Shown: one piece after another, positions 14,616 through 54,250 of the stretch
How positions within the stretch are numbered: the stretch's first letter is position 1
How the letters are laid out: every line of letters begins with the position of its first letter
Assembly (NCBI RefSeq): GCF_003351865.1
Contig: NZ_CP022242.1
Span: 186,001 to 250,000 of the forward strand
Length of the DNA stretch: 64,000 nt
Reading direction: 5' to 3'
DNA from: Methanofervidicoccus sp. A16
GTDB lineage: Archaea > AGJL01 > Methanococci > Methanococcales > Methanococcaceae
Program-made: the position numbers and the translations under genes
The notes under the pieces: generated by a model
What the model was told of the DNA's origin: nothing
Seen by the model: the letters and a program-made list of their open reading frames with translations, nothing else
Databases searched by the model: none

Positions 14616-14820
14616 AATTCTTATTTTATTATATATATACTTTTCCTTAATCTGTTAATCTAAATAAAAGGATTTAAATTAAAAAAGTGTTATCAAGTAA
14701 GGAGTTGTACCTTGAACAGCTATCAAGGTTTCAATAGCAACTATTATAAAATAAAAATAACCTTAGTTCCCATCAAAGTAATGATTTGAATAATTAAATA
14801 ATAAAAAAGACTAGAAAAAA

Positions 14821-15152
14821 CCTTAGTTCCTACCAAGTGTGATTAAAAGAACGATGAAAATGATAATTGTTGTAATAAAAATCATGATTAAAATAATCAG
14901 TATAAAATCTATATAAAAAATCATTAAATATCCTAAGATCTTTCTGAACACATAGGTAAGATAAGGGACCATATTCTGGTATCCACTAATTAGAAGGTAT
15001 TCAGAGGATCGTTCTCCTTTAATATTATTTTTAAAATTTTTTGTATCTAGGATAATAGAAGTTTTTTATTTTTAATTTCTTCTAATTTTTTTAATTATTA
15101 TAATTTTATTGATCATTATTATTTTTAAACTATTTTTTTGATGAGAACTAGG
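14821..15152 (+). mobile_element. Family A inverted-repeat element nested in family B
   Basis: Begins CCTTAGTTCCTACCAAGTG and ends TTTTTGATGAGAACTAGG. Its interior (CCATATTCTGGTATCCACTA near 14971, then a GC-richer TTCAGAGGATCG near 15010) is closely matched at 49500-49550 and more distantly at 53795-53860. It lies exactly 60 bp into the left arm of a family B element, so it probably inserted later. No ORF of significance. No clear direct repeat of its own was found. Confidence 0.72.
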
Positions 15153-15355
15153 ATAATGATCATTATTATGATAAAATAATAAAAGTTTTAAGAGAAATAA
15201 AAAATGAATAAAATTCTGATAGAGGCAGAAAAATAAAATAACCTTTTTTGGACACTGAAGAAACAGAGGTAGGATTACTTTTTAATTTTTTTTAGTTTTT
15301 ATCCTTATTTTTATTTTATTAATATTTTTTATATTATCACTGGTGGGAACTAGGG
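15153..15355 (+). repeat. Partial third element with a family-type right end
   Basis: The stretch ends in TTATCACTGGTGGGAACTAGGG, the inverted form of the family A left end, but has no matching left end. It holds the sequence ACTGAAGAAACAGAGGTAGG (about 15254). Related sequence recurs near 30970 (ACTGAAGAAACAGGGCAGG) and more loosely near 54060 and 19530. It may be a decayed element brought in together with the family A copy. Confidence 0.45.
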
Positions 15356-15725
15356 TTATAATCCTTTAATAAAAATTAATAATAGCGACCTGTTAGAAAG
15401 GATATACTCCACTTCTCCATAGTGTCTTAGAGCGTCCCAGAAAGATTATCTTTATTTTAATTTTAATGCCCTCACTTATACTTTTATTTTTATAATTATT
15501 GTTATTCTTATTAGAATTTTTTTGATGGGAATTAGGGTTAAAAATAATCAAAATTAGATTAAAAATAGAAATATCTTAAAATTATTAATTAAAAGAATTA
15601 ATTATGATAATAAAGTAAAAAATTTTCATTATCTTTTGGATATCCAAGAGTACTATGGATTCCTGTATACTCTTTTTTATTTTTTATTCTTTTTTTAATT
15701 TTCTTATTAAAAAAATAATAAATAG

Positions 15726-15914
15726 TTATTTTATCCTGACTCTATTAACCTTCTTGGACTGCCAGGAGTATCTCCTTATCCTCTTGCTAGCCCCAAAACC
15801 ACAGGCTGCACAGACCTTCTTTCTAACATGGTAGGCTCTTCTACCACATCTTCTACATCTTATATGTTTAGATCCCTTGTTGTGTTTTCCCATTGAGGGA
15901 GTACCTTTACTCAT
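15726..15914 (-). CDS. rpl37e: 50S ribosomal protein L37e
   Basis: Zinc-finger ribosomal protein of 62 aa. [17 protein letters not shown] is the typical L37e start, and [20 protein letters not shown] gives the CxxC...CxxC zinc site. It is the last gene of the L7Ae-S28e-L24e-Lsm-L37e operon, 22 nt after the Lsm gene, with AGGTGA before the ATG. On the distal side lies a repeat-element locus. Confidence 0.97.
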
Positions 15915-15936
15915 AACACTTCACCTTATCCTCTAT

Positions 15937-16152
15937 TTAGAGGGATACAAACTGTATGTTGTCTCCCCTAATTACGATCATTTGGAACTCTTTATCGTCC
16001 TTGTCAAACTTGGCATTTTCAAGGGCTATGTTTATATGTAGATCGTATGCCTTCAATATACCCTTTACTACGGTACCATCTTTTAAATAAACAGTTACAT
16101 TTGTATTTATAGCCTTCCCTAGGATATCTAAGGGCCTCTGAGTATTTATCAT
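15937..16152 (-). CDS. Sm-like archaeal protein (LSm)
   Basis: Archaeal Sm/LSm protein of 71 aa that forms heptameric rings binding U-rich RNA. The Sm1 motif (VYLKDGTVVKGILKAYDLHI) and Sm2 motif (IVIRGDNIQFVSL) are both intact. It lies between L24e and L37e in the operon; pairing of LSm with L37e is common in euryarchaea. AGGTGAT lies just upstream of the ATG. Confidence 0.95.
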   Translation of the reverse strand: MINTQRPLDILGKAINTNVTVYLKDGTVVKGILKAYDLHINIALENAKFDKDDKEFQMIVIRGDNIQFVSL

Positions 16153-16182
16153 CCTATCACCTTTTAAATTATTTGATATTTA

Positions 16183-16374
16183 TTAACTTCCCTTAACTTT
16201 AAGTTCGTGGTATATATATGTCCATTTAAGTTTCCTTGGATCTCTTCCTAGTTTGTAGTTTTTCTCACACTTTGAGGAACAGAAGAGTAGTACAGAACCA
16301 TCTTTTTTTACATATCTCTTTCCAGTACCAGGTTCTATTTTTCCTCCACAAAAACTACACCTTTTCCACTCCAT
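16183..16374 (-). CDS. rpl24e: 50S ribosomal protein L24e
   Basis: Zinc-binding large-subunit protein of 63 aa. [21 protein letters not shown] followed by CSSKCEKN gives the CxxC...CxxxC site, and DPRKLKWT is the family C-terminal signature. Standard gene order with S28e upstream. AGGTGA precedes the ATG. Confidence 0.97.
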
Positions 16375-16384
16375 AAAACTTCAC

Positions 16385-16615
16385 CTATCTCCTTTTACCT
16401 AATGGTTTAGCCTCTCTCTCAGTTTCCCTGAGCATTATAATATCTCCAACTTTTACAGGCCCCTTAACATTCCTCGTTAGAATACGACCTGTATCCCTCC
16501 CCCCTAATATCTTACACCTTACCTGGATTATCTCCCCAGTAACCCCTGTCCTTCCAATTACCTGGATTACTTCTGCCGCTGTGGCTTCTTTATAGACCAT
16601 TTCATCCTCAGACAT
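16385..16615 (-). CDS. rps28e: 30S ribosomal protein S28e
   Basis: OB-fold small-subunit protein of 76 aa. The family signatures [35 protein letters not shown] and the C-terminal [11 protein letters not shown] are all present. Second gene of the L7Ae operon, with GGTGG a few bases before the ATG. Confidence 0.97.
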
Positions 16616-16636
16616 GTTACCACCTTAGATATTACC

Positions 16637-16990
16637 TTACTCTTTTAACGCCTTTATCTTCTCCACCAACTCCTTTAACTCCTCAGGATCGTCTTCTTCA
16701 ATAATTGCAACTGAGGATGCTGCTACCTCTATCCCTGCAGCTTTACCTAAATTCTCCTTTGTAGATACGTAGGTGTACGGAATATTTTTCTCCTCACAGA
16801 GGTATGGAATATGTGCTACTATCTCCTCTGGTTGAACGTCTTTAGCCAAAACTACTAATTTGGCGATACCCCTTTCAACAGCCTTTGTAACTTCATTTGC
16901 CCCTTTTCTGATCTTTTTAGCTTTAGATATTAATTCGAGAGTTTTTTCCTCTATCTCTTGAGGCACATCAAATTTTACATATATAGCCAT
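16637..16990 (-). CDS. rpl7ae: 50S ribosomal protein L7Ae
   Basis: Kink-turn-binding protein of 117 aa that serves in the ribosome, box C/D and H/ACA RNPs and RNase P. The central [20 protein letters not shown] is the conserved RNA-binding stretch, and [19 protein letters not shown] is typical. First gene of the operon, with a strong AAGGAGGGAG site 5 nt before the ATG. Probable TATA boxes on the minus strand lie at about 17063-17075 and 17101-17113. Confidence 0.97.
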
Positions 16991-17450
16991 ATATCTCCCT
17001 CCTTATCCTTTTAAAAATAATATATACGTTTTTCATCCATTTTGGCCCACTCATATCATCATGGTATAAAAAGAGTGGTTATATCCCTATTCTTTGAAGT
17101 TATATTTATAGATTATGGTTAAAAATAATTCATATTAACAATAGGCATCTATAAAATTTTGTGTTATTACCGCTTAAAAAATAAAAGATTAATAAAAAAT
17201 AATTATAATCATTATAATAAATATAAGAAGTTATTCTCCAATACTATCACTATCAACATTTATTATTTATCATTGAAATTTTCTAATAGTTTTTAAAAGT
17301 GTGAGAAATTCAAAAGAACTAATTTTTACTAACTACTTAACACATTTTCTGGGAAAACAGGGTTTAAATAACTTTGTTAATAATCCCTGTCAAAAAAATT
17401 CTAATAAAATGGGGTTATTATAATTATAAGATTAATAAATATAAAAGAGA

Positions 17451-17685
17451 GCCCTAGTTCCCATCAAAAGTAATAATATAAAAAATAATAATAAAATAAG
17501 AAATAAGAATAAAAACTAAAAGTATAAGAAGAATGTATTAAAATTAAAATAAAAGATAATCTTTCTGGGACGCTCTAAGATACTATGGAAGTGGAGCAGA
17601 TCCTTTTTTAATAGATTACTATTATTAATTTTATTATTTTTTAATATTTTTATTATTTAAATCATTACTTTGATGGGAATTAAGG
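17451..17685 (-). mobile_element. Family B inverted-repeat element, reverse orientation
   Basis: Left end CCCTAGTTCCCATCAAAAG (17452) and right end CTTTGATGGGAATTAAGG (to 17685) are near-perfect inverted repeats. The core, read on the minus strand, is GGATCTGCTCCACTTCC...GAGCGTCC (17568-17603), matching the copies at 15400, 49854 and 53548. Length about 235 bp, non-coding. No convincing direct repeat flanks it. Confidence 0.75.
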
Positions 17686-17784
17686 TTTATTTTATTATTA
17701 TTCCTCTTAAGATTTTTATTATTTTTTATTATAATATTTTTATTTTTATTATTCTTCTAATCACAGTCTTGATGGGAATTGGGG
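17686..17784 (-). repeat. Truncated family A end
   Basis: The stretch finishes with TTCTAATCACAGTCTTGATGGG then AATTGGGG, which is the reverse complement of the family A left end seen at 14821 and 49351. Only about 100 bp of AT-rich arm remain before the family B element begins, with no core. It looks like a left-arm fragment. Confidence 0.5.
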
Positions 17785-18079
17785 TTAATAAAATTAATTA
17801 AAAATCTTATATTAATTCGGATAATAATAAGATATAAAAAAATAATAAAAAATTGTTAAAAAATAAAAAACTTCTATATGTCCTTACAATATAAAAATTA
17901 TATATAAACAGGGATAGTTCTCCCTGTCTCTGAACATTGGAGGGGTGATCCCCTAAATAGAATTTTATATTTTATAGTAGGATTTTCTGTCTTATTCTCC
18001 TACCATTTTGTTTTATTGTTTTTTAATTTTTTATTATAATTACTTTAATTTTTAATTAACTACTTTGATAGGAATGGGG
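17785..18079 (-). mobile_element. Diverged family A element, reverse orientation
   Basis: Read on the minus strand, AAGACAGAAAATCCTACT matches AAGATAGAAAATCCTACT in the family A copy at 53704-54004, and AGAAGTTTTTTATTT matches the copy at 14821. The plus-strand right end is TACTTTGATAGGAATGGGG (18061-18079). The interior holds three strong hairpins: 17909-17926 (6-bp stem), 17941-17954 (5-bp stem) and 17977-18003 (6-bp stem). Non-coding. Confidence 0.55.
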
Positions 18080-18191
18080 TTTAATGGAAATAAATTAATA
18101 TTTTATTATAATATTACTTATTACTCCTGGCTGATAAGATACCAATTACTATAATCATTGTATTGTTCTACCCAATATTCCAGGTGACAAG

Positions 18192-19460
18192 TTGATTCTA
18201 AAGAATTGCAGAATAGTGACCAACAACCAAATTGTAGAGGGAGATATACTAATTGAAGATGGAGTTATAAAAGAAATTAAAAAAGATATTAAAAATGGAG
18301 ATACAAAGGTGGATCTGAAAAATAAGATAGTTATTGGAGGAATTATAGATGCCCATGTCCATTTTAGATATAACAACGTTAAAAAGGAAGGGTTTATATC
18401 AGGTAGTGAGGCCGCTATAAATGGAGGGATAACCTACGTTATAGATATGCCAAACGACAACCCTCCAATTACCACAAAGGAAAGGTTCTACAAGAAATAT
18501 AGGGAGGGGAAGGAGAAGAGTAAAGTGAATATAGAGTTTAACTACGGTGTAACAGAAAATAACTACTTAGATAAGATAGAGGAGGCAAAATCCTATAAGA
18601 TATTTATGGTTGAATCTGTTGGAGATCTCTTTATAAGTGATTATAGTAAGTTAAGGGACATTCTCAATCAGGATAAGATATTTACAATCCATGCTGAACA
18701 TAAGGATGTGATAGAGGAGAATAAAAAAAGATATCCCTTAAACTCCTGGATAGATCACTGTAGGATAAGAGATAAGAGGAGCGAGGTGGAGGGAATAAAG
18801 GAGATCTTAAGATGTTTAGAGGAAATAGAGAAGTTAGGGAATAAAAAACCCCATATCCACTTCTGCCATATCTCTACAAAGGAGGGGTTGGATCTGATAA
18901 AGAAGGCGAAGGAGAGATTTAAAAATGTTAAAATCACCTTGGAGGTTACTCCCCACCACCTATATCTAAATATGGACATGGCCGAGGAATTGAAGGGATT
19001 AGGTAAATTCAACCCTCCTTTGAGAACCAAGGAGGACAACAGGGCACTTATGAGGGGATTAATAGAGGGAAGTGTGGATATTGTAGCAACGGATCATGCT
19101 CCCCATACCTACGAGGAGAAGAGTAGGGATGTAAGGGAATGTCCATCAGGTATTCCAGGTGTTGAAACCTTTCTCCCGTTGATGTTGAACCTTGTAAATA
19201 AAGGGATGATATCTCTATTTCGTCTTGTAGATCTCATCTCCAACAAACCTGGAAGGATATTCCATATAGACAACAGATTAAAGGAGGGAAAAACTGCAAA
19301 CTTAACTGTTATAGATCTAAAGAGGGAGATTACAATAAAGGGAGAGAGGTTTAAATCTAAGTCTAAATTTACACCTTTTGAGGGCTGGAGAGTTAAAGGA
19401 GTACCTATCTATACATTGGTTAACGGTACTCTCTATGAGACGTCTTTGGTGGATTTGTGA
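18192..19460 (+). CDS. pyrC: Dihydroorotase
   Basis: Zinc amidohydrolase that interconverts carbamoyl-aspartate and dihydroorotate in pyrimidine synthesis. Metal-binding motifs are in order: DAHVHFR near residue 52, TIHAEH near 166, HFCHIST near 222 and DHAPH near 300. Length 422 aa, typical of the archaeal type. The start codon is TTG at 18192, with AGGTGA 4-10 nt upstream; no ATG fits. The repeat locus ends about 110 bp before this start, so it must lie close to the promoter. Confidence 0.94.
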
Positions 19461-19922
19461 CTAAATGATGAAATATTCAAATAAAATAAGGAAAAAGTAA
19501 ATCTCGCTGTATCCTTTACAATACTTCAGGTACTAGAAAAACAGAAGATTGAGATATTATTTTTTATTAAATCTTTAAAATTAATAATAAAAATAACTAA
19601 GTTAATTGTAAAAATAAAAATGATACAAATAATAAAAATAAAAAAGAAATTAAAACTATTCTCACCAATCTCTACATTATTTGGGAATAAAGACATCCAA
19701 GAGTTATAGTTAGGAGAGAATGGAAATTTTTCCTTTCCCCTTTAATTTTTAGTAGTTAGAGAAGGATATTATCCAAATTTATACACTTAAAAAATTTATA
19801 TTTAGAGTAGTAGAAAAAGTATTATTCTTAAAACCTTTTAAAACAATTCGTTATTTATTATTTTCTTTATTTATTTTATCATGATCTTATTAGTTAACTT
19901 TTTCTTTACCGACCCTATTATT
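19461..19922. other. Intergenic region between convergent pyrC and the radical SAM pseudogene
   Basis: Non-coding, AT-rich. At about 19503-19555 ATCTC...GAGAT and CTGT...ACAG can pair to form a loose hairpin; the loop contains GTACTAGAAAAACAGA, loosely similar to sequence at 54065. Both flanking genes point inwards, so transcription terminators are expected here, but none can be singled out. Confidence 0.4.
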
Positions 19923-21005: not shown

Positions 21006-21399
21006 TCCTTTCACTTTTTGTTTTTATTATGAGGGTATTTTTGAAGGAGATGCTCTAGATGGAAAGATTTTCTTACACATTTTTTCACAATAATTTTATT
21101 AGGGAAGAGAAGCTGATGTAGAGATTAGATCTTTTGGAGGGAATTTTAAAGAATAAGTTTTTATTTATATCTCACATGGAGGGATATGGATAATATTAAA
21201 AGTCATTAAAAGCTTATAATATAATACTTATCAATATTTTTTTACTAAATCTTAAATTCTAAAGTTATTTTTTAATTATTATTACAAATAAAAATTAGTT
21301 TAAACCTATAAATTATTAAAATAAATTATTAATTATTAAATAATATTATTGGCAACAATATATTCTAACTACAAATATTCAAAATAATATTGTGATACT
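21006..21399. other. Divergent promoter region at the left edge of the glycan locus
   Basis: Spacer between the radical SAM gene (minus) and gmd (plus). Strongly AT-rich over its right two thirds, with no ORF. The gmd ribosome binding site GTGAT lies 3 nt before the ATG. Specific TATA boxes cannot be chosen among many AT runs. Confidence 0.4.
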
Positions 21400-22434: not shown

Positions 22435-22438
22435 TACT

Positions 22439-23128: not shown

Positions 23129-23138
23129 TGTGATTACT

Positions 23139-24203
23139 ATGAAGATACTATATATATGTGGGAGGGAACCTTCTTACGTAAGGAACTCGGTAATACTGAA
23201 AGGTTTAAAACTTCAGAAAGATGTGGAGTTATTGGAATATACGAGCAATGCTGAGAACTATTTCAAAAGATATATATCAGTATTTAAAAAGTATTTATTA
23301 AGATATAGTAGTGATTGTGACATCGTATATGTTGGATTTCTCGGACAACCTATTGTTCCTATAGTGAAGATCTTGTCTAAAAAACCTATAATTTTTGATG
23401 CACTTATTTCAGTATATGATACGTTGTGTTACGATAGGAAAATATTTAGGTCGAATTCCATTATGGGAAAGTTATTGTATCATTTAGATAAAGCTTCATG
23501 TGATTTAGCAGATATTGTCTTGTTGGATACGAATACCCATATAACTTATTTTGTAGATACTTTTAAACTAGATAAAAATAAGTTTAAAAGGATATTTATT
23601 GGCGCTGATGACAATATATTTTATCCACGAGATATTAATAAGGATAATGATAAATTTAAAGTTTTTTATTATGGAACATATTTACCTCTACACGGTATAG
23701 AATATATTGTGAAATCAGCGAAAATTTTAGAGAACTATGAAGATATTATATTTAAAATAGTAGGAAAAGGTTTTGTATATAAAAAAATTATTAACTTAGT
23801 TAAAAAATTAAATATTAAGAATATAGAATTTGTAGAGTGGGTACCTTATGAGGAATTACCTTTAGAAATTGCTCAGGCAGATATTTGCTTAGGTGGACAC
23901 TTTTCAGACATTGACAAAGGGAAAAGAGTAATAGCAGGAAAAACTTTCCAATTCTTAGCAATGAAAAAACCTGTTATCGTTGGAAACAATCCAGCAAATA
24001 GGGAATTACTCACAGATAGAAAAAGTGCCCTATTTGTTGAACATGCCAATCCAGAAGACTTGGCAGAGAAGATCTTAGAGTTAAAAGAAAATGAGAAATT
24101 AAGGGAAAAAATCGCTGAAGGAGGATATAAAGTATTTAAAGAAAGATGCACCCCAAAGGTTATTGGAAAAGAACTTTTAAATATAATGAAAAAGGTTATT
24201 TAA
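23139..24203 (+). CDS. Family 4-type glycosyltransferase
   Basis: GT-B fold transferase of 354 aa. The N-terminal acceptor half starts MKILYICGREPSYVR. The C-terminal donor half contains FKVFYYGTYLPLHGIEY, IKNIEFVEWVPYEELP and a terminal region AGKTFQFLAMKKPVIVGN with the conserved acidic site in a divergent form. Unlike the three genes that follow, it does not carry their shared 3' block. The start is the ATG after GTGATTACT; a GTG three codons earlier is part of the ribosome binding site. Confidence 0.82.
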   Translation: MKILYICGREPSYVRNSVILKGLKLQKDVELLEYTSNAENYFKRYISVFKKYLLRYSSDCDIVYVGFLGQPIVPIVKILSKKPIIFDALISVYDTLCYDRKIFRSNSIMGKLLYHLDKASCDLADIVLLDTNTHITYFVDTFKLDKNKFKRIFIGADDNIFYPRDINKDNDKFKVFYYGTYLPLHGIEYIVKSAKILENYEDIIFKIVGKGFVYKKIINLVKKLNIKNIEFVEWVPYEELPLEIAQADICLGGHFSDIDKGKRVIAGKTFQFLAMKKPVIVGNNPANRELLTDRKSALFVEHANPEDLAEKILELKENEKLREKIAEGGYKVFKERCTPKVIGKELLNIMKKVI

Positions 24204-24214
24204 GTGATACTGTT

Positions 24215-25342
24215 ATGAAAGTAGGAATTATATCTGATAGGTTAAATAGAACATTGGCCGGAGTAGGGAGATATATCTATAATTTAATCAGGGAGTTATC
24301 TAAAATCTCTAAAGATGATTTATTTTTAATTAATTATATTGAAAACAATACTTTTAATCTAAATAAAATAATTATAAATAATCCTTTTAATTTTTTACCA
24401 AAAAAGTATGCTTATTACTCTTGGCATATTTATTTAAACTATTATTTAAAAAGTAAAAAGTTAGATTTAGATATTATACACAGTCCTGAAAATATAACTT
24501 TATTTATTAAGTTAAGAGAAAATCAAAAGAAAGTTATTACAGTTCATGATATTATGCCTTATATTTTTAATCAATATCACCACCTTTTACTTCGCTGTTC
24601 CTACAAATTTTTTCTACTAAAAACCCTTAGAACAGCAGATAAAATAATATCAGTGTCATACAATACAAAGAAAGATATTATAAAATACTTTAAAATACCT
24701 GAGGATAAAATAAAAGTTATTTACCATGGAATTGACAGAAACTACAAACCTCTCCCTGAAGAGGAGATAGAAAGTATAAAAAAGAAATACAATATAAACT
24801 ATCCCTTTATTCTATACACTGGTGGTTTAGCACCAAACAAAAATGTCGAAAGATTGATTTATGCCTTTTATAAATTAAAGAAAAAATTACCTGAATATAA
24901 ATTAATAATTACCGGTATAAAAAGATATAAATACAAATCAATATTTGAAACCATAGACAAATTAAACCTCCAGAAAGATATTATATTCACAGGATACGTT
25001 CCAGAGGAGGACCTCCCCGCCCTATACAACGCTGCAGATCTCTTCGTTTATCCCTCTATATATGAAGGCTTCGGACTTCCACCCTTAGAGGCTATGGCCT
25101 GTGGAACACCTGTGATAACATCTAATACTTCATCTCTACCAGAGGTAGTAGGAGATGCTGGGATAATGGTTGATCCCTACGATGTTGATGGGTTGAGTAA
25201 AGCGATGTATGAGGTTTTAACTAACGATGGGTTAAGGGAAGAACTGAGAAAGAAGGGTTTAGAGAGGGCTAAGTTATTCAGTTGGAAGGAGTGTGCTGAA
25301 GAACATTTAAAGGTTTATGAAGAAGTTTATAATATGAAGTGA
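24215..25342 (+). CDS. GT4 glycosyltransferase, first copy with the shared C-terminal block
   Basis: Mannosyltransferase-like GT4 enzyme of 375 aa. The N-terminal half ([20 protein letters not shown]) binds the acceptor. The donor half includes [37 protein letters not shown] and the [17 protein letters not shown] motif that grips the nucleotide sugar. The last 385 bp of coding sequence (24953-25337) are identical to those of the next two genes. The ATG with GTGAT upstream is preferred over an upstream ATG at 24146 that overlaps the previous gene. Confidence 0.85.
24953..25337 (+). repeat. Shared 385-bp glycosyltransferase block, copy 1
   Basis: Identical at every base, by eye, to 26102-26486 and 27237-27621. 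It encodes the C-terminal donor-binding part of the GT4 enzyme, from [10 protein letters not shown] to the last residues YEEVYNM. It is visibly richer in G+C than the 5' parts of the same genes. Directly upstream, copies 1 and 2 remain similar but clearly diverged. Confidence 0.95.
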
Positions 25343-25351
25343 GGGGAGAAA

Positions 25352-26491
25352 GTGAAAATTGGGATAATATCAGAACCATTAAATCAATCTTTAACAGGAG
25401 TAGGAAATTATACTTATAATTTAATTAAAGAATTAATAAAAATAAACTCTATCAAAGAAACTACCATTTATTTAATTAATTATAATAAAATAAAAATATT
25501 TAATAACTTAGATAATGTTATAATTAATAATCCATTTAAAAATTATCCTGTTAAAACTTATAGTTGGTATATTTATTTATTTATGAAATTTAAAGTACTT
25601 CCTTCTTCAGAACTGTCTTCTTTAGAGATTATACATAATCCTAGCCAGGCGCCAACCTATTTTAAAATTAAACAACAATATGTATATACTATCCATGATT
25701 TAACACCTATACTATTCCCTAATGAACATAAAAATGGAAAATATTTAATTTACAAACTCCTCCTACCAAAAACCCTCAGAACAGCAGATAAAATAATAGC
25801 AGACTCATATAATACAAAAAAGGATATTATAAAATATTTTAAAATACCTGAAGATAAAATAAAAGTTATACACCTTGGAGTTGATGAAAAATATAAACCC
25901 CTATCTGAGGAGGAGATTAACAGTATAAAAAAGAAATACAGTATAAACTATCCTTTTATTCTATACGTTGGGACATTGGAACCGAGAAAAAACATTCCCA
26001 CCCTCATTAAAGCATACTACAAACTTAAAAAACAGGGATTGCCACATAAGCTAGTTATTACCGGTAAAAAAGGATGGAAATATAAATCAATATTTGAAAC
26101 CATAGACAAATTAAACCTCCAGAAAGATATTATATTCACAGGATACGTTCCAGAGGAGGACCTCCCCGCCCTATACAACGCTGCAGATCTCTTCGTTTAT
26201 CCCTCTATATATGAAGGCTTCGGACTTCCACCCTTAGAGGCTATGGCCTGTGGAACACCTGTGATAACATCTAATACTTCATCTCTACCAGAGGTAGTAG
26301 GAGATGCTGGGATAATGGTTGATCCCTACGATGTTGATGGGTTGAGTAAAGCGATGTATGAGGTTTTAACTAACGATGGGTTAAGGGAAGAACTGAGAAA
26401 GAAGGGTTTAGAGAGGGCTAAGTTATTCAGTTGGAAGGAGTGTGCTGAAGAACATTTAAAGGTTTATGAAGAAGTTTATAATATGAGATAA
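25352..26491 (+). CDS. GT4 glycosyltransferase, second copy with the shared C-terminal block
   Basis: GT4 enzyme of 379 aa starting at GTG with GGGGAG 5 nt upstream. The N-terminal third ([20 protein letters not shown]) resembles copy 1 only loosely. The middle ([29 protein letters not shown]) is close to copy 1, and the last 385 bp are identical to copies 1 and 3. This graded similarity is what partial gene conversion would leave. It probably adds the same type of donor sugar as its neighbours but to a different acceptor. Confidence 0.85.
26102..26486 (+). repeat. Shared 385-bp glycosyltransferase block, copy 2
   Basis: Same block as 24953-25337. Here identity ends at the last codons (GAGATAA in place of GAAGTGA), whereas copies 1 and 3 also share the stop codon and the next few bases. 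Copies 1 and 2 extend their identity leftwards by about 20 bp beyond the three-way limit. Confidence 0.95.
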
Positions 26492-26506
26492 ATAGGAGGG
26501 AAAATA

Positions 26507-27626
26507 ATGGTAACTCAAAAAAAAAATTAAAGTTGATGCAATTATTGGATTTAAGATGAATGAAATTTTTGGGAAATATAGAGTATATTATGAAACTGCA
26601 ACGAGACTGACTAACTATATTGATTTTAATGAGATATCATACTTTTTACCGAAATATAAGATTCCATGTAAAACTATTATTTGTAATTTAATATTTTATC
26701 CAAAAATAGTTAAAAATTCTCTCAGGAAAGATACAGATTTAGTTCATGTGTGGTCTCAGGAAGAGGCATTTATTATTAACAAATTTAAATTTAATACAAA
26801 AACAATAGTAACGTGTCTAGATATAATCCCGATATTATACAAAAAAAATAATGGTCTAATATACGCTTCTTTTATAAAATACTCCCTAAAAGGTATGAAA
26901 AAAAGTGACAGAATTATAACAATATCAAAACATGTTAAAAATGATCTTGTTAGACATTTTAGTATTTCAGAAGAGAAGATTAATGTGATTTATTTGGGTG
27001 TTAACGAGCACTATAAACCAATTCCTGAGAATGAAATTGAGAAAATTAAATATAAATATAATTTAAAATTCCCTTTTATTTTATATGTCGGTTCAGAGCA
27101 GCCTAGAAAGAACTTTCCAACACTTATTAAGGCATTTTATAAGCTAAAAACTAAATACGGTTTTAATAATATCAAATTGGTGAAAGCTGGAAATCCTCAA
27201 ATAAGTAAATACAAACGAAAACACATTATGAAATTAATAGACAAATTAAACCTCCAGAAAGATATTATATTCACAGGATACGTTCCAGAGGAGGACCTCC
27301 CCGCCCTATACAACGCTGCAGATCTCTTCGTTTATCCCTCTATATATGAAGGCTTCGGACTTCCACCCTTAGAGGCTATGGCCTGTGGAACACCTGTGAT
27401 AACATCTAATACTTCATCTCTACCAGAGGTAGTAGGAGATGCTGGGATAATGGTTGATCCCTACGATGTTGATGGGTTGAGTAAAGCGATGTATGAGGTT
27501 TTAACTAACGATGGGTTAAGGGAAGAACTGAGAAAGAAGGGTTTAGAGAGGGCTAAGTTATTCAGTTGGAAGGAGTGTGCTGAAGAACATTTAAAGGTTT
27601 ATGAAGAAGTTTATAATATGAAGTGA
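26507..27626 (+). CDS. GT4 glycosyltransferase, third copy, with an A10 tract that frameshifts the best start
   Basis: The donor half is again the identical 385-bp block; the N-terminal half is unrelated in detail to copies 1 and 2. The best start is ATG 26507 with GGAGGG 7 nt before it, but that frame ends after eight codons because of a run of ten A (26517-26526). Removing one A would join it to the main frame ([10 protein letters not shown], then MNEIFGKY). As sequenced, translation could begin only at ATG 26556, giving 356 aa without a ribosome binding site and lacking the first strand of the fold. Either a phase-variable tract, slippage, or a homopolymer sequencing error. Confidence 0.75.
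26517..26526 (+). repeat. A10 homopolymer at the start of a glycosyltransferase gene
   Basis: Ten consecutive A directly after ATG GTA ACT C. With nine A the gene reads from a well-placed start into the conserved N-terminus; with ten it hits TAA at 26528-26530. Such tracts are classical sites for slipped-strand mispairing or polymerase slippage. Confidence 0.85.
27237..27621 (+). repeat. Shared 385-bp glycosyltransferase block, copy 3
   Basis: Identical to 24953-25337 and 26102-26486. The sequence to its left (ACAAACGAAAACACATTATG) has no counterpart in the other two, so the left border of three-way identity is sharp. On the right, identity with copy 1 continues through the stop codon. Confidence 0.95.
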
Positions 27627-27634
27627 GGGATAAA

Positions 27635-28507: not shown

Positions 28508-28524
28508 CAATTAAAGTGGGAAAT

Positions 28525-30810: not shown

Positions 30811-31989
30811 TTAAAATAATAACAACCATCGAGATGTCGAATAATAATAATTATAATAAAGAATAATTAAAATCAGAAAATAAAGAATATTTAAACTGTA
30901 AATCCCTAAATGAAGAATAAATACAGGTGAAAAAGTAAAATAAGCTCTTATCCTCTAAACTACACTGTGCACTGAAGAAACAGGGCAGGATTCTGTTAAT
31001 CTTTTTTCTTAGAAGTTTTTTACCTCTTTTTTTATTTACTAATCTTTTACTATCTTTAGGGGCGGTCAAAATAAAATAAATATCAAATAAGTATTTTAGG
31101 GTGTTTTCTCAACTTACAATTAATCTCTATTCAGATCACTCCATACCATAATTAAACAGTTAATTTACTCTTCCCTTCTAACGGGACAAAACTATATTAC
31201 CCTAAATAAAAAATAAATAAATTAATTACTATTAATGAATAAATATGAAATCTTCAATTGTTTTAGTAGAAAAAGATAAAAAAATTAGAATTTCTAAGAA
31301 AAACCATAAGAAAGATGAATACAAAGGAAGAAAAGAAGACTTTAGATAATAATATAACAACACCAGTAAATAAATCCATAGAAATTTTAAATATTGCACC
31401 TTAGCAATATTCTATTGAATTAGAAGTATTTTATATGATTAATAAAGCAAATAAACTCTATAAATTGAGAAAATTTTTATAGATCAATCTTCTATATTTT
31501 ATATTTAAATTTTAAGTAGGATAATTTACAATCTTATTTTTTTTAATTAATAATATTAATTAGAAAAGAGAGAGAACGAAGATATTTATGCTTATATTGA
31601 GCAATATAGACATAAAACTTAATTTAAATCATTTCAAAAAAAAATAAATTTAAGAATAAATTTCAAAATTAAGGTATTTATGAAGAGTTTTCTCCTATTA
31701 ATGGAAATGACATCTATGATGGATTTTAGGGAAAAGAAAAGTGTTTAGGGATTATTAAAAAGATAAAATGAATAATTTACTAAATAAATTAAATTATAGA
31801 AAAATTCTTTTATTTTAATGTGATTGCACTGCTATAATTTCGTATCTGTTGGAGATAAGCATTCTTCTTCTGTCCCTTTGATGAAAAAGGTATTTAAATT
31901 TAGATTTGATATAAAAGAAAGGTATTTAGAAGTTATTTGGATAGAGATATAAAGAAAACTCCAGTATTTATTTAAAAATTTATTAAGTA

Positions 31990-32181
31990 TTGGTTCAGTA
32001 TCGATACTGCAAAAAGCATGATTTAATTATCCTAAAGGATAAAGAAGAAGAATTCGCTAAAATGGTAAAGGAAAAAGTTGTTATAAGTGATAAAGAGCAT
32101 GTAAACAGGGAATTTGCCGAAGAAATGGAGAAAAGGGGTATTATATTCATCACAATAAGAGGAAAACATGATAAAGAGTGA
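31990..32181 (+). CDS. Doubtful small ORF, possible gene remnant
   Basis: 63 codons from a TTG, with no ribosome binding site of the local type. The product is charged (HDLIILKDKEEEFAKMVKEK), begins with a Tyr/Cys/His-rich stretch and ends KHDKE. Not recognised. It lies in a decayed-looking gap, so a remnant of a longer gene is more likely than a working peptide, though the amino-acid composition is protein-like. Confidence 0.25.
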   Translation: MVQYRYCKKHDLIILKDKEEEFAKMVKEKVVISDKEHVNREFAEEMEKRGIIFITIRGKHDKE

Positions 32182-32213
32182 TAAGGAACGGGAGTATTGC
32201 AGATCCCTTTCTA

Positions 32214-32245
32214 AACTGAGAAAAAAAATAACACTTTTCTCAGTT
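32214..32245. repeat. Perfect 11-bp inverted repeat (hairpin)
   Basis: AACTGAGAAAA (32214-32224) and TTTTCTCAGTT (32235-32245) are exact inverted copies separated by 10 nt. In RNA this would be a stable hairpin in an otherwise AT-rich decayed region. It could be a terminator, but no intact gene ends here. Confidence 0.7.
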
Positions 32246-32425
32246 GTAGACAACTTCGGATTGAGATATATACGGGCCGTAAGTAGAAAAGGCCTATTTG
32301 TTAAAATTATCCTTAGTCTATTGACGTTTAATACTTATCAGCTAATGGTAATGAGAACTAGGGTAAATAATAAATAATAATATGCCAATAATATTTTGTT
32401 CGTTTTTTATATTATATTTTTTATA

Positions 32426-37699: not shown

Positions 37700-37709
37700 A
37701 CTATCACCT

Positions 37710-41149: not shown

Positions 41150-41157
41150 GTGAATAG

Positions 41158-42857: not shown

Positions 42858-42871
42858 AGTTGGTGAAATCT

Positions 42872-43730: not shown

Positions 43731-43763
43731 AAAATAATAAAAATTTTATAATATATAACTACT

Positions 43764-45083: not shown

Positions 45084-45106
45084 AGAAATCCATCTCCTCT
45101 GAAAAA

Positions 45107-46036: not shown

Positions 46037-46045
46037 AATAAACCC

Positions 46046-47570: not shown

Positions 47571-47795
47571 ATGATAATAGAAAAATTAATATCTAAAAGA
47601 GGACAAATATCCATGGAGTTAGGTATATTAGTTGCTGCCGCTGTTGCTGTTGCTGCAATTGCTGCGTATTACTATGTAAAGAGTGTTAGTGATAGTGCAG
47701 GTGCAGCAGAAGATAATGCTACTCAGACAATAAATGAGTTAGGAAGGTTAGCAGAAAATGCTACAGGTAGATTAAGACAAATTACTCTTCAATAA
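47571..47795 (+). CDS. Class III signal-peptide pilin (type IV-like)
   Basis: 74-aa prepilin. The short charged leader is followed by KRGQISMELGIL, the QxSxExxxL class III motif cleaved by the prepilin peptidase EppA in methanococci, with cleavage before Gln. Then comes an Ala/Val-rich assembly helix (about residues 21-38) and a short Asn/Thr/Leu tail with an NAT sequon. A perfect AAAGGAGGT sits 7 nt before the ATG, suggesting high expression. Likely a structural or accessory subunit of pili; the assembly genes are elsewhere. Confidence 0.92.
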   Translation: MIIEKLISKRGQISMELGILVAAAVAVAAIAAYYYVKSVSDSAGAAEDNATQTINELGRLAENATGRLRQITLQ

Positions 47796-47847
47796 ATTAC
47801 AATAAACAAAATAATTTAAATTTATTACTTATTTTTTTGGGTTATCT

Positions 47848-48066
47848 ATGTCCAAAATACTCTCCAAAAGAGGACAGATATCTATGGAGTTAGGTATTTT
47901 AATTTTTGCAACAATTATCGTCTCCGCTATTGCAGTCTATTATTATATCACTAACTATTTAAACTCCAATCCTGACGCTCCAGGAAAGGCAGCGAATAAA
48001 ACTATTGATACATTAAATAATATATCTGAAAAATATAGTAATTCTATAGGTTCCATAACTCTATAA
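47848..48066 (+). CDS. Class III signal-peptide pilin, second copy
   Basis: 72 aa, with the same SKRGQISMELGIL processing site as the gene 50 bp upstream but a different helix (IFATIIVSAIAVYYYI) and tail, which contains NKT. Probably cotranscribed as a two-gene pilin unit. Its weaker ribosome binding site suggests lower expression, as of a minor pilin. Confidence 0.9.
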   Translation: MSKILSKRGQISMELGILIFATIIVSAIAVYYYITNYLNSNPDAPGKAANKTIDTLNNISEKYSNSIGSITL

Positions 48067-48104
48067 AGGAATAGGGAACAAATATCTTTTACTTTTTTAT
48101 AAAA

Positions 48105-49121
48105 TTATCCACCTAATACCTTCTCCTTAAAAACCTCATAGCAGAGATTTAAAACCTCCTTTATAACCTCATCTTTACTCCTACTTTTATCGTACTTCGC
48201 ATTTAACCCTGCAGCCTCTCTATGCCCACCTCCTTTTCCCCCTAACCTCTTGGCCACTTCTTCCATTATTTCCCCCATATGTATTTTTTTAGATAAGGAT
48301 TTCCTACACCTCCCACTTACCCTTATCTCCCTCTCCCTCTTTCTTACCGCCACCACAAAGGACACATCTGCACCAATAGATACAATAGTCTTTGCACAGG
48401 ATGCCTCATAGGAACTTACATAGGACAGTGCCACAATATACCCACCAACCTCCCTTAACTCCATCCTACTACAGGCCTTTAAATGTGCTATCCTCTTACT
48501 CTCATCCATCTCCTGAGTTAGAAGACTGAGCACCTTCTGGAAATTAATACCCTTTATAAGCCAGGCTATTATCTGAAAAGTTTCCTCCCTTGCAAGTTTC
48601 AAATGTTTAGTGTCGTAGAGGATACCAGAGAGTAAACCTATCCTAATTTTCTTTGGAGGATATATCCCCATCTCCCTGAATATCTGAGAAACTATCTCAC
48701 AGGTGGAGGTAGCCCCCTCATCTACGATAGAGAGAGTACAAAGATCTAAGAGATCTGTCCTTTTATGATGATCCACAACTACTAAAATAGAATCTTTCAA
48801 ATCCTGAGTATTTATCTTTACCTGGTTTAAATTGGAGGTATCCACAAAAAATACTACATCTAACAACTTGGGATACTGAACAACTTCCACATCCTCCTCA
48901 ATCTCCTCAAGTACATTCTTTGACAACTTACTTATAGAATCTGCCGATATTTTAAGATTTTTATCCTCTGATCTGTTTAAAACATCTGCAAGATACTTCA
49001 AGGCAACTGCCGCCCCAATCGCATCTGGATCTGCATTGTGATGACATAGAAAGAGTATATTTTTATTTTCCTGAAGTATCTTCTTTAGATGGAGTATGTC
49101 CTCACTTTTTAACTTTACCAT
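48105..49121 (-). CDS. DHH-family phosphoesterase (RecJ/NrnA-like)
   Basis: 338 aa. N-terminal HHNADPDAIGAA near residue 27, VDHHKRTD near 116 (the DHH motif) and a C-terminal DHHA1 domain with GGKGGGHREAAG near 298. Such archaeal proteins degrade short oligonucleotides or act as RecJ-like exonucleases; which applies cannot be decided from sequence. GGTGTC lies just before the ATG. Single gene, convergent with the pilins. Confidence 0.88.
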   Translation of the reverse strand: MVKLKSEDILHLKKILQENKNILFLCHHNADPDAIGAAVALKYLADVLNRSEDKNLKISADSISKLSKNVLEEIEEDVEVVQYPKLLDVVFFVDTSNLNQVKINTQDLKDSILVVVDHHKRTDLLDLCTLSIVDEGATSTCEIVSQIFREMGIYPPKKIRIGLLSGILYDTKHLKLAREETFQIIAWLIKGINFQKVLSLLTQEMDESKRIAHLKACSRMELREVGGYIVALSYVSSYEASCAKTIVSIGADVSFVVAVRKREREIRVSGRCRKSLSKKIHMGEIMEEVAKRLGGKGGGHREAAGLNAKYDKSRSKDEVIKEVLNLCYEVFKEKVLGG

Positions 49122-49350
49122 ATTGACACCATATTTTTAAACTCGTAATCAAAAAATAACAATTGATAACAAAAAAATTAAAAAGTTAAGGAATAAAAAG
49201 AGAGTAAAAAATCTCTTAAGAAAATGAATTAGGAATTCAAGGTATTCTAAGAAATAACAACAACATCTTTATTAATACTTTTTAATGATTTTTAGGATTT
49301 TCTATTTTTTAATTTTTATAATAATAAAATTTTATTATATTATTTTATTA

Positions 49351-49691
49351 CCTTAGTTTCCCTCAGTAGTGATTAAAAGAACAGTGAAAATGATAATTGT
49401 TATAATAATAAAAATCATCATTAAAATAATCAGTATAAAATCTATATAAAAACTCTTAAATATCCTAAGATCCTTCCGAACCCTTAGATAAGATAAGGAA
49501 TCATATTCTGGTATTCACTAATTAGAAGGTATTCAGAGGACCATTCCCCTCCAATCTTCTTTTTAAAATGTTATATCTGGGATTAATAGAAGTTTTATTT
49601 TAAACATTTTTTATTTTTTTATATTTTTTTATTTTATTTTTATTATTATTCTTATTATTTTTTAAACTATCCTTTTGATGGGAAGTAGGGT
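49351..49691 (+). mobile_element. Family A inverted-repeat element
   Basis: Left end CCTTAGTTTCCCTCAGTAG, right end CCTTTTGATGGGAAGTAGGG. The interior is closely matched to 14821-15152, for example CACTAATTAGAAGGTATTCA. The flanks ATTTTATTA (49342-49350) and ATTTTAATT (49692-49700) agree at 7 of 9 positions. About 340 bp, non-coding, between the DHH gene and cdhD. A family B copy follows 28 bp later. Confidence 0.75.
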
Positions 49692-49719
49692 ATTTTAATT
49701 ATTATTAAGATCTTGTTAA

Positions 49720-50013
49720 CCTTAATTCCCATCAAAGTAATGATTTAAATAATAAAAATAAGAATAATAAATAAGGACTAGAAAAAAATATTATTGAAAT
49801 ATACATTATCTTTAATATCTTTAATAAAATTAATAATAGTAATCTATTAAAAAGGATCTACTCCACTTCCGTAGTATCTTAGAGCATCCCAGGAGAGATT
49901 ATTTATCTCTTATTTTGATCTAAATACATTCTTTTTATATTTTATTAATTTTATAATATTATTTTATAATTTATTGTTCTTATCAGGATTTTTTTATTAA
50001 TAGGGATTAGGGT
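49720..50013 (+). mobile_element. Family B inverted-repeat element
   Basis: Left end CCTTAATTCCCATCAAAGTA and right end ATTAATAGGGATTAGGG (decayed). Core GGATCTACTCCACTTCC...GAGCATCC at 49854-49889. The flanks TCTTGTTAA (49711-49719) and CTTTGTTAA (50014-50022) agree at 7 of 9, or better with one gap. It is the longest family B copy. Confidence 0.75.
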
Positions 50014-50503
50014 CTTTGTTAATTTTTGTTTTAATATAAATAGTTAAAATCCAATTATAAACATCTTAAAGAATAACAATTCTATCAATCTTATCAAAGT
50101 AGTAATTTAAATTTAAAAAATAATAAAGAAAATTTTAACATAAAATATATTTTTATAAAAAATACCCTGTTAAGAGAGTTTTATTCCTCTATATTCTTTA
50201 AGTATCTTGCAGTATTTGAAAAGATATTTACCTGTTTATGATAATTTACCATGTTTCAAAGACTTATTTAACTTCAAATTTTAATATCTTTTTTGTATTT
50301 TCCATTATGATCATCAAAGTTCTAAAATTTTTAAATAAATTTACTGTAAAACACTTTAAAATTAATTTTAATACTATAAAAGTTATTTTAATTCTTTTAA
50401 TCGGATTTTAAGGGAAAATATAACTTATTCAAAAACTTTATATATTACTAGCCTAATCTATAATGATTTATAATGATAGATTTTTGTCCTGTTGGTGGTC
50501 ATA
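50014..50503 (+). promoter_or_regulatory. Upstream region and promoter of cdhD-cdhE
   Basis: AT-rich with no ORF. TTTATATATTA at 50437-50447 with preceding AAAAAC is a good TATA box/BRE, about 57 bp before the cdhD ATG. GGTGG is the ribosome binding site. The repeat element ends about 420 bp upstream of the promoter. Confidence 0.6.
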
Positions 50504-51694
50504 ATGGATTTAGATGAAATATTTAAACTGATGAAAAAGGTTAATAGTATAAAGATAGACAGCATCGAAATAACTGCAGATGAAATTGTTATAAACATTC
50601 CTACCCTATCTCCTATCTCTATACCTCAAACTCCTCCAATAAAGAAAGGTATTAAGAAAATAGTATCACCGGAAGAACCTAAGATAGAGATACCTGAAGT
50701 AGATTGGGAGCCTCCAGTAGAAAAGTACAGAGGGTATATAAGAGAGGTGCAACTTGGTAGGCCTAAGTCTGAAGGGGGTAGAGGAAAGGTAATAAAAATA
50801 GGTGGACAGAGGGCACTTTACAGGTTCGAGGAGGTTCAACCGAATCCACCAGTGGTAACATTCGACATATTCGATATGCCGATGCCTGGACTACCTAAGC
50901 CTGTTAGGGAGTACTTCCAGGATGTGATGGAGGATCCTGTTGAATGGGCTAAAAAGTGTGTAAAGGAGTTCAACGCCGATATGGTAACTATACACCATAT
51001 ATCTACAGATCCAAAGATTAAAGATACACCTCCAAAGGAAGCTGCAAAGTTGATGGAGGATCTACTCCAGGCTGTAGATGTGCCCTTTGTTATTGGGGGT
51101 AGTGGAGATCCTAAGAAGGATCCTCTTGTTTTGGAAGCATGTGCTCAAGTTGCAGAGGGGGAGAGGTGTCTATTGGCATCTGCAAACTTAGATTTAGATT
51201 ATAAGAAAGTAGCAGATGCTGCAATGAAGTACGATCATAACGTACTGTCCTGGACTATTATGGATCCAAATATGGCAAGGGATTTAAATAGAAGGTTAAT
51301 ATCCCACGGTCTCGATGGAGATAGAATCGTTATGGACCCTACAACATGTTCCCTTGGATACGGTATAGAGTTCTCCATAAATGCCATGACAAGGTTAAGG
51401 TTAGCAGGTTTAAAGGGCGACGAACTGGTAAATATGCCCATGTCCTCTGGAACTACAAACGCCATAGGTGCCAGAGAGGCCTGGATGGTCAATCCAGAGT
51501 GGGGAGATAGAAGGTACAGATTACCACTCTGGGAAATTACAACGGGATTGACCATGCTCCTCTGTGGCGTAGATATATTTATGATGCTCCACCCCCTCTC
51601 CATAGCGGTAGTAAAGGAGTTTGGGAAGTTGTTGGTAAGTAAGCCTGGGGAGATAGAGGTAAGTACTGACAACTACCAGTGGATAAGGGCTTAG
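50504..51694 (+). CDS. cdhD: Acetyl-CoA decarbonylase/synthase subunit delta
   Basis: Small subunit of the corrinoid iron-sulfur protein in the Wood-Ljungdahl pathway; with CdhE it carries the methyl group between tetrahydromethanopterin and the acetyl-CoA synthase centre. 396 aa, TIM-barrel type: VVTFDIFDMPMPGLPKPVRE near residue 115, VPFVIGGSGDPKKDP near 190 and MPMSSGTTNAIGAREAW near 305 are typical. The start is the ATG after GGTGGTCATA; a TTG four codons earlier is the frame limit. cdhE follows after 13 nt. Confidence 0.95.
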   Translation: MDLDEIFKLMKKVNSIKIDSIEITADEIVINIPTLSPISIPQTPPIKKGIKKIVSPEEPKIEIPEVDWEPPVEKYRGYIREVQLGRPKSEGGRGKVIKIGGQRALYRFEEVQPNPPVVTFDIFDMPMPGLPKPVREYFQDVMEDPVEWAKKCVKEFNADMVTIHHISTDPKIKDTPPKEAAKLMEDLLQAVDVPFVIGGSGDPKKDPLVLEACAQVAEGERCLLASANLDLDYKKVADAAMKYDHNVLSWTIMDPNMARDLNRRLISHGLDGDRIVMDPTTCSLGYGIEFSINAMTRLRLAGLKGDELVNMPMSSGTTNAIGAREAWMVNPEWGDRRYRLPLWEITTGLTMLLCGVDIFMMLHPLSIAVVKEFGKLLVSKPGEIEVSTDNYQWIRA

Positions 51695-51707
51695 TATCGG
51701 TGATAGG

Positions 51708-53183
51708 ATGGCTAAAAAGATAAGTGCCATGGATATCTACAAACTACTTCCAAAGACAAACTGTAAGAAATGTGGGGAATCCTCCTGTATGGCATTTGCT
51801 ACGAAACTACAGGAGAGGAAGGCCACCCTCGATGAATGTCCAATATTAAAATCTCCAAAGTTTGAGAAGAATAGAAAGAAACTTGAAGAACTCCTCTCCC
51901 CACCTGTAAAGGAGGTATGGTTTGGATACGAGGATAAGAAGGTGGTTCTAGGTGGAGAGGAGGTAATGTACAGGTATGAACTCACCTTCTTTAATCCGAC
52001 GGCTATAGGGGTAGATATATCAGATAATTTACCTGAGGAGGAGATAAAAAAGAGGGCTAAATTCGTTGAGGATTTTGTTTTTGAGAGGACAGGGGAGAAG
52101 TTGAAGTTAGACTTTATAGCATTGCGAAATGCCTCAAATGATCCTGAAAAGTTTGTAAGGGCGTTGAAGATTATTCAAGAAAACACCAAGGTACCTGTCG
52201 CCCTCTGTTCCCTAAATGTAAAGAGTATAGAAAAAGCCTTAGATGTTGTAAGATCTAAACCTATGATATACGGAGTAACAGAGGAGAACTTCTCTGAAAT
52301 GATGAGGATGTTAATATCAAAGAAAAGGAAGGATAAAAAAGAGTTTGCAGTGGTGCTATCTTCAGGAAATATTAAAACACTGAAGGGCATGGTTAAGGCG
52401 TCCCTTCAACATGGTATAGAGGATCTAATTTTAGATCCTCACACTACACCAGAGAACATTATGGATACTCTCGATAGATTTGTGATGATAAGGAGAAGTG
52501 CCATTGAAAGGGGAGATAAACTTCTTGGATATCCTATCTTAGGACTTCCAATAAATACCTACTTCTACGTACTAAAGGGCAACAATCCAATTAAACAGTT
52601 TGTTGAAGAACTAGATAAGGCTGCCGGAATTATGGAGGCGAGGACAGCCTGTGCAATGTTGAACAGGTATGGAGATGGAATAATTATTCACGGTACCGAG
52701 GTTTGGGAGTTGATGCCAATACTTGCCCTTAGGCAGGCAATATATACAGATCCTAGGAAACCTCAAACTGTGGAGCCTGGATTATATCCAATTGGAAATC
52801 CAGATGAGAATAGCCCAGTGATCATGACTACAAACTTCTCCCTAACATTCTACACAGTAACTGGAGACTTTGAAAAGGATGGGGTTACCTGTTGGCTCCT
52901 AGTTATGGATACAGAGGGTAAGGCAGTGGATGTCGCAGTGGCAGGGGGACAGTACTGTGGAGATAACGCCAAAAGATTAATAGAGGAGACGAAGATAGGG
53001 GAGAAGGTAAATCATAGGATTATTATACTTCCAGGGTTAGCAGCTCCTGTAAGGGGGGATATTGAGGAAAAGACTGGCTGGACATGTGTAGTTGGAACGA
53101 GAGACTCTTCCCAAGTTGGGGAATTTTTAAGGAAGAACTGGAATAGAATACTTGAGGAGTGGAGGGCTAAGCAGGAATCATGA
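51708..53183 (+). CDS. cdhE: Acetyl-CoA decarbonylase/synthase subunit gamma
   Basis: Large corrinoid iron-sulfur subunit of 491 aa. The N-terminal LLPKTNCKKCGESSCMAFA with a later ECP forms the 4Fe-4S site. A TIM-barrel methyl-binding domain and a C-terminal cobamide-binding region follow (VAVAGGQYCGDNAKR, then ILPGLAAPVRGDIEE). CGGTGAT precedes the ATG. The alpha, beta and epsilon subunit genes are not next to this pair, so the five-subunit complex must be completed from another locus. Confidence 0.95.
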   Translation: MAKKISAMDIYKLLPKTNCKKCGESSCMAFATKLQERKATLDECPILKSPKFEKNRKKLEELLSPPVKEVWFGYEDKKVVLGGEEVMYRYELTFFNPTAIGVDISDNLPEEEIKKRAKFVEDFVFERTGEKLKLDFIALRNASNDPEKFVRALKIIQENTKVPVALCSLNVKSIEKALDVVRSKPMIYGVTEENFSEMMRMLISKKRKDKKEFAVVLSSGNIKTLKGMVKASLQHGIEDLILDPHTTPENIMDTLDRFVMIRRSAIERGDKLLGYPILGLPINTYFYVLKGNNPIKQFVEELDKAAGIMEARTACAMLNRYGDGIIIHGTEVWELMPILALRQAIYTDPRKPQTVEPGLYPIGNPDENSPVIMTTNFSLTFYTVTGDFEKDGVTCWLLVMDTEGKAVDVAVAGGQYCGDNAKRLIEETKIGEKVNHRIIILPGLAAPVRGDIEEKTGWTCVVGTRDSSQVGEFLRKNWNRILEEWRAKQES

Positions 53184-53458
53184 ATGTAATAAGATAAGAA
53201 AAAAATTAAATTTTAATAATTTTCGAACTATATATAAAAAAATATAGATTAAAAATAATTTTAATAAAAATTATAAAAATAAAAAGAGAGTAAAAACGTA
53301 AAAGCTCCTTTAAAGGGAAGAGTTATTAAAAATCTATAGTGTTAAAATATTTAAAAAATTAAAAATAAAGAACACTTCAAACTAATAGTAACCTATAAAG
53401 AATAATGAAAAAGTAATAAAAATCCAAACTATTAACACCTAAAAATAAATAATATATA

Positions 53459-53685
53459 CCTTAGTTCCCATTAAAGTAATGATTTAAATAATAAAAAATA
53501 TAATATCTAATAATCTAACAAAATTAATAATAGCAACCTGTGAGGAAGGATCTACTCCACTTTCATAGAGTATTTTAGAGTATCCCAAGAGATTATCTTT
53601 TATTTTGATTTTATACCTTCTTTTTATGTTCTTTTATTTTTTATAATTATTATTCTTATCAGAATTTTTTGATGGAAATTAGAGT
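53459..53685 (+). mobile_element. Family B inverted-repeat element
   Basis: Left end CCTTAGTTCCCATTAAAGTA, right end TTTTTTGATGGAAATTAGAG. Core GGATCTACTCCACTTTC...GAGTATCC at 53548-53585, where the pairing ACTC/GAGT differs in a compensated way from GCTC/GAGC in the copy at 17451. No clear direct repeat. A family A copy begins 18 bp after it. Confidence 0.75.
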
Positions 53686-53703
53686 TTTTTAATTATAATA
53701 TAA

Positions 53704-54004
53704 CCTTAGTTCCCATCAGTAGTGATTAAAAGAATAATAAAAAATAACCAATATAAAAATCATTAATACCCTTAGGATCCTTCTGATCATTTAGTTAAGA
53801 TAGAAAATCCTACTCTGAATCCCTGTATTAAAAAATATACAGAGGATCATTCTCCTTCAATATTATTTTTAAAATTTTTTGTATCTGGGGTGATAGAGGT
53901 TTTCTGTTTTTTTAAATATTTTCTTTAATCTTTAATTTTATTATTTTTATAATAATTTTTATTTTTATTATTCTCTAAATTATCCTTTTGATGGGAAGTA
54001 GGGT
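53704..54004 (+). mobile_element. Family A inverted-repeat element
   Basis: Left end CCTTAGTTCCCATCAGTAG, right end CCTTTTGATGGGAAGTAGGG, the right end being identical to the copy at 49351. The interior is diverged but shares ACAGAGGATCATTCTCCTTC with the other copies. The flanks ATAATATAA (53695-53703) and ATAATATAT (54005-54013) agree at 8 of 9. About 300 bp, non-coding. Confidence 0.75.
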
Positions 54005-54250
54005 ATAATATATAACTGAAAAGTAAAAATAACTGTTTCATTTTCTGGACTATACTGAGAGTACTAAAAAAGCAGAGTAGAACCTCTGTTAGTTTTTCTT
54101 TTTAAGAGTTTTTTGCATTTCTTATTATTATTTTATTAATTTTTTATTTATGATAATAATTGTTAACTTTATCAGTAGTTTAAAAAGTTATGTTTTTATA
54201 TCTATATTTTTATATTGAAACAGAATTGATTTAAATACATCAATCATAGT

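Follow-up and report, generated by a model that had tools for sequence, protein, structure and literature searches.

The closest precedent for the elements described here is MITECca01 of Cardinium cOegib, an IS982-derived MITE with 169 copies that occupy 3.5% of the chromosome (PMC9769881). The IS982 family itself has inverted repeats that start with AC and mostly measure 15-20 bp, an autonomous length of ~1 kb and target duplications of 0-10 bp, and members are known from Methanotorris formicicus and Methanocaldococcus bathoardescens; MITEs go unmentioned in the paper that describes it (PMC7335449). Among thermophilic archaea, Sulfolobus has MITEs (SM1-SM4, SMN1 and SM3A) bounded by terminal inverted repeats and by direct repeats; in S. 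solfataricus P2 a family numbers 25-44 copies, and SMN1 and SM3A are mobilized by ISC1733 and ISC1058 (PMC10969869, PMC3718332). IS982 is absent from a review of prokaryotic MITEs, in which the sole methanogen mentioned is an organism without MITEs (PMC10969869).

The elements analyzed here were found in a window of 64,000 bp (G000:C1:186001-250000) from Methanofervidicoccus sp. A16, the genome of which (G000) is a single contig of 1,504,113 bp and is 99.94% complete. MITECca01 resembles them in being ~240 bp long and non-coding, in its IS982-family ends and very many copies, and in lying mostly in intergenic DNA and also inside other mobile elements (PMC9769881). However, it is a single family from a bacterial endosymbiont and its interior matches an intact parental IS (PMC9769881), whereas the present host is a heat-loving methanogen, an archaeon with three interior families, composites and chimeras, an estimated load of ~5% and no intact parent. 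The Sulfolobus MITEs share the terminal inverted and direct repeats and the thermophilic archaeal host, but have fewer copies per family, and two of them, SMN1 and SM3A, depend on other insertion sequences (PMC10969869, PMC3718332). Unlike members of the IS982 family, the elements of the window have no transposase gene. As IS982-type MITEs they form a new set, which is of an ordinary kind and stands out by its load, its composites and chimeras and the loss of its parent. In our judgment, they very probably derive from a burst of such MITEs, composites included, the parent of which was lost in this lineage.

After correction for orientation, the interiors form three families, A, B and C/D, with consensus lengths of 335 bp for A, 244 bp for B (the end of which was not fully reached) and 190-270 bp for C/D; individual B copies measure ~230-295 bp. 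All are shorter than 600 bp and without a transposase gene, and both ends of the elements carry terminal inverted repeats (ACCYTARTTCCCATCA). The first position is A in 96% of the ends and is followed by CC, and the AC-starting ends with ~15-20 bp of inverted repeat are as in IS982. The predicted folding energies of the oriented consensus sequences are -77 kcal/mol for A and -34 kcal/mol for B. A version of A as a near-perfect palindrome of 344 bp (-156 kcal/mol) was rejected as an artefact of mixing both orientations in the consensus.

An earlier note on this DNA had reported at least eight elements, and the eight that it listed were recovered in place with their ends (Table 1). Its division into two families is right in that A and B have distinct interiors, but it missed the third family, C/D. 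What had been read as a reverse A at 17785 is the right end of a C/D element, beside the reverse B at 17451-17686, and A and B occur together in three of the four loci rather than in all of them, the fourth holding C/D and B. The B copy at 14761 is present but is split by A and C and resumes at about 15357; copies or relics of C at about 15155-15356, at 30830-31054 and, weakly, at 17807-18079 had been overlooked.

Table 1. Mobile elements and fragments mapped in the window (position 1 is the first base of the 64,000-bp stretch)
Feature	Position	Strand	Evidence
B, left part (B 1-65) of a copy split by A and C	14760-14819	+	nhmmer B profile; end ACCTTAGTTCCCATCA at 14760
A, 335 bp, within B after ...GACTAGAAAAA	14820-15154	+	A-in-B junction found at 7 dispersed sites
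C, limits approximate	15155-15356	-	profile match, 109 bits; end GGTGGGAACTAGGGT on right
B, right part of interrupted copy (B 77-243)	about 15357-15538	+	profile match
B, 236 bp	17451-17686	-	profile match
C/D right end, adjoins reverse B	about 17687-17785	+	D-B junction AATAATAAAATAA / ACCTTAATT, 6 dispersed sites
Possible decayed C	17807-18079	-	weak, 24 bits
Decayed C	30830-31054	-	35 bits
Dead IS982-family 3' fragment	32005-32364	+	right end ...AATGAGAACTAGGGT
A, 342 bp, intergenic, upstream of CdhD-like gene (50492)	49350-49691	+	site empty in L061, L062, L063
B, 295 bp	49719-50013	+	profile match
B, 228 bp	53458-53685	+	site empty in L061, L062, L063
A, 302 bp	53703-54004	+	exact 9-bp repeat TATAATATA on both sides

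The A and B copies within 49136-50431 lie in a divergent promoter region, flanked by a DHH-family gene on one side and the CdhD-like gene on the other, and may have an effect on expression. CdhD is the delta subunit of CO dehydrogenase/acetyl-CoA synthase. Elsewhere in the window, three tandem paralogous group-1 glycosyltransferase genes (24146-27626) share ~300-bp stretches that are 90-97% identical and are the product of a recent tandem triplication. Between 47583 and 47946, two adjacent copies of a sequence (47583-47675 and 47854-47946) read, as judged by eye, as short pilin-like proteins (KRGQISMELGILVAAAV...), which are probably class III signal peptide pilins.

The ends are abundant throughout the genome. 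A search with the degenerate end CCYYARTTCCCATYA, allowing at most one mismatch, gave 402 matches in G000, versus 2 for the same motif reversed. Within the genus, 91 matches were found in G001 and 57 in G007; in another genus, G014 had 39 and G016 had 21, and the remaining genomes were mostly at or near background. When one A copy and one B copy were used as whole-genome queries, each returned at least 40 candidates. A census sample of 464 kb was assembled from the window and 20 stretches of 20 kb, mostly at even spacing, and profile searches of it identified 115 pieces (41 A, 35 B and 39 C/D) that add up to 23.6 kb, or 5.1% of the sample. In the 20 spaced stretches without the window, coverage was 5.2% and 78 pieces in the 400 kb exceeded 120 bp; extrapolated from these stretches alone, the genome would contain ~293 pieces longer than 120 bp and 387 of any length. 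We estimate the element load at ~5% of the genome, in roughly 290-300 substantial copies. Beyond stray end fragments, A and B were found within the genus only in G000 and G001. The congener G007, alongside its end-motif matches, has eight decayed IS982 fragments without a full-length A or B, and probably has MITE families of its own with such ends.

The elements were inserted by transposition. In the 464-kb sample, 55 elements have both ends, and direct repeats of 8-12 bp (most often 9 bp) that are exact and flush flank 18 of them, against a chance expectation of 0.66 on average and 4 at most in 2000 shuffles of the same flanks. The target-site duplications are statistically unmistakable and stronger than the earlier note had proposed from a few 9-bp repeats, of which the 9/9 case is the one at 53703-54004. 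Approximately two thirds of the end-to-end copies have no exact duplication, which we attribute to the age of the copies. Like MITEs generally, the elements are dispersed and multicopy, and have empty sites in relatives. For example, a 266-bp element at G000:C1:986305, judged by eye against the consensus to be a chimera of a B core and an A right end, is flanked by TAATCTTTT twice and is absent from the congeners G004, G005 and G010, where the sequence reads through with one copy of the target at 88-90% identity. In L061, L062 and L063, the parts of the window at 49136-50431 and 53179-54246 are shrunk to ~14-30 bp between aligned blocks. For the sites 396788 and 24190, the global alignments to G001 and G008 were of poor quality. 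A lack of empty sites or of further copies had been named beforehand as evidence against transposition; empty sites and 402 ends were found instead.

Partners with a transposase gene and matching ends were identified in G006, G014, G020 and G025, although most of the genes are broken. G020 has two 985-bp copies with the ends CCTTAGTTCCCATCA and CCATAGTTCCCATCA, one of them with TTAATTATC on both sides; the gene that they enclose is broken and matches NF033520, an IS982 profile. G014 gave 29 protein-level IS982 matches, and the ends CCGTAATTCCCATCA/CGGTAGTTCCCATCA are present on several copies. Within the genus, G006 has a 942-bp element with a frameshifted gene and the ends ACCTTACTTCCCATCA...TGATGGGAACTAGGGT. 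The end-motif matches of G025 belong to an IS982 fragment, and near those of G028 no transposase could be recognized. In G000, an N-terminal 160-aa IS982 query had no match, and the family profile had one weak match, located in the window, which is the only IS982 trace found in that genome. This relic is a C-terminal remnant of a transposase coding sequence, with a stop and a frameshift. It aligns to the G006 element from position 576 to the end at 942, the right ends coinciding exactly (75% nucleotide identity over 367 columns, blastn E 1e-66; 68% identity over 73 aa, tblastn E 1e-25). The earlier statement that no transposase lies in the window was wrong in substance, given this 3' fragment with a matching right end. 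As for the transposase with matching ends that had been predicted elsewhere in the genome, such ends do occur on IS982 genes in relatives, but G000 has only the dead fragment. The reading of the elements as non-autonomous, MITE-like and moved in trans by a transposase with matching ends is supported by the copy number, the target duplications, the empty sites and the matching IS982 ends in the Methanococcales.

Searches of the genus yielded no intact IS982 element, so the link to the enzyme rests on matches in the ends (15-16 bp) and in the length of the duplications. Apart from the 16-bp end, the A consensus and the IS982 loci had only A+T-rich stretches in common, and shuffled versions of the consensus gave hits of the same kind. 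The MITEs could in principle have been moved by a transposase of another family with similar ends, as G000 has no intact IS982 gene and duplications of 8-9 bp are known from several families. However, it is around IS982-family genes that the same ends occur in G020, G014, G025 and, within the genus, G006; the relic in the window terminates in this sequence as well, and the AC ends, the ~1 kb length and the variable duplications are IS982 features (PMC7335449). We consider an enzyme of another family quite improbable and infer that an IS982 transposase moved the elements; this movement appears to have stopped. In G011, four IS982 matches (L176, L179, L182 and L184) agree in score, in span and in the number of stops (3 TAA each), and represent a broken transposase that was copied several times, perhaps by being moved in trans.

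The elements are intergenic, and no ORF of 90 aa or more contains most of any element. By crude ORF calls, elements are present in 19 of the 47 convergent, 30 of the 234 tandem and 4 of the 57 divergent intergenic regions (convergent versus divergent, Fisher P = 8e-5). This enrichment in convergent regions, together with interiors that are well conserved between copies, could indicate domestication, with selection maintaining the copies as, for instance, terminators of transcription or non-coding RNAs, in contrast to neutral debris. However, the bias can be explained without any function by avoidance of divergent promoter regions, the simplest reading being that insertions were removed from them, and the gene calls behind it are crude. 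A terminator function was rejected on the grounds that runs of six or more T have much the same density inside the elements (4.8 per kb) as in the rest of the intergenic DNA (4.9 per kb). The elements also match no Rfam family, the search of the window having returned tRNA only and no known RNA within them. Selection for such a role strikes us as improbable.

Individual copies differ by ~10% from their consensus and by ~15-16% from each other, and even the most similar pair among the 30 A copies compared is 8.6% apart. With copies ~10% diverged from the consensus, the burst is old and roughly star-like. Ancient, vertically inherited repeats or structural DNA that never transposed would likewise not be young, but this account is refuted by the flush target duplications and the exact empty sites, and we give it practically no credence.

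Within the IS982-type burst, the elements are not scattered independently. Multi-element loci number 28, against 16 under random placement; 15 loci hold both A and B (8.7 expected, P = 0.004), while multi-element loci of a single family are depleted (1 vs 7.2 expected, P = 0.002). The earlier observation that A goes with B is therefore statistically real, although it holds for three loci of the window and not for four. The pairing is largely due to nesting, which was seen as B in A, A in B and either of them in C/D, and in which a given inner junction recurs unchanged at 4-7 dispersed sites. For example, copies of the form A(1-88)-B-A(89-335) have the inner duplication CAATATAAA in common but differ in their outer flanks; the insertion point of B in A is at position 88-90, and one of the five aligned copies is without the left A part. 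A follows GACTRGAAAAA of B in seven places, B adjoins a C/D fragment through one junction six times, and ...TTGTTAAT in B is followed by a C/D- or A-type end five times. Shared inner junctions at dispersed sites with differing outer flanks indicate that the composites multiplied as units. A also entered B at different points (441400, 716560), so not all nested cases are copies of one composite. One possible reason for the rarity of same-family loci is loss by recombination between direct repeats.

The history that we favor is as follows. A DDE transposase of the IS982 family would have recognized the ends, and most insertions would have gone into A+T-rich intergenic DNA, each with a duplication of ~9 bp of target. 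As the ends are all that is required, nested insertions and B/A chimeras with two good ends would have been mobilized and multiplied as single units, which would account for a large part of the association of A with B. In this lineage, the parental element would then have died out, its last recognizable fragment being the relic at 32005-32364, leaving the present copies as an old and probably immobile burst. It is possible, though on balance doubtful, that the MITEs form a modular system: three interior families with one type of end would repeatedly nest and recombine, composites and chimeras would become new transposable units that outlive the parental IS, and mixed-family loci would be favored and same-family loci depleted.

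By estimate, this genome ranks among the heavier prokaryotic MITE loads, with ~5% of 1.5 Mb compared to 3.5% in Cardinium (PMC9769881), and the Methanococcales gain a described set of IS982-type MITEs. The traceable junctions of the composites and chimeras show that, where nothing but the ends counts, short elements can build larger mobile units. With a burst and the fossil of its probable parent side by side, and no live copy found in a complete genome, the set provides a clean case for how a MITE burst starts and ends.
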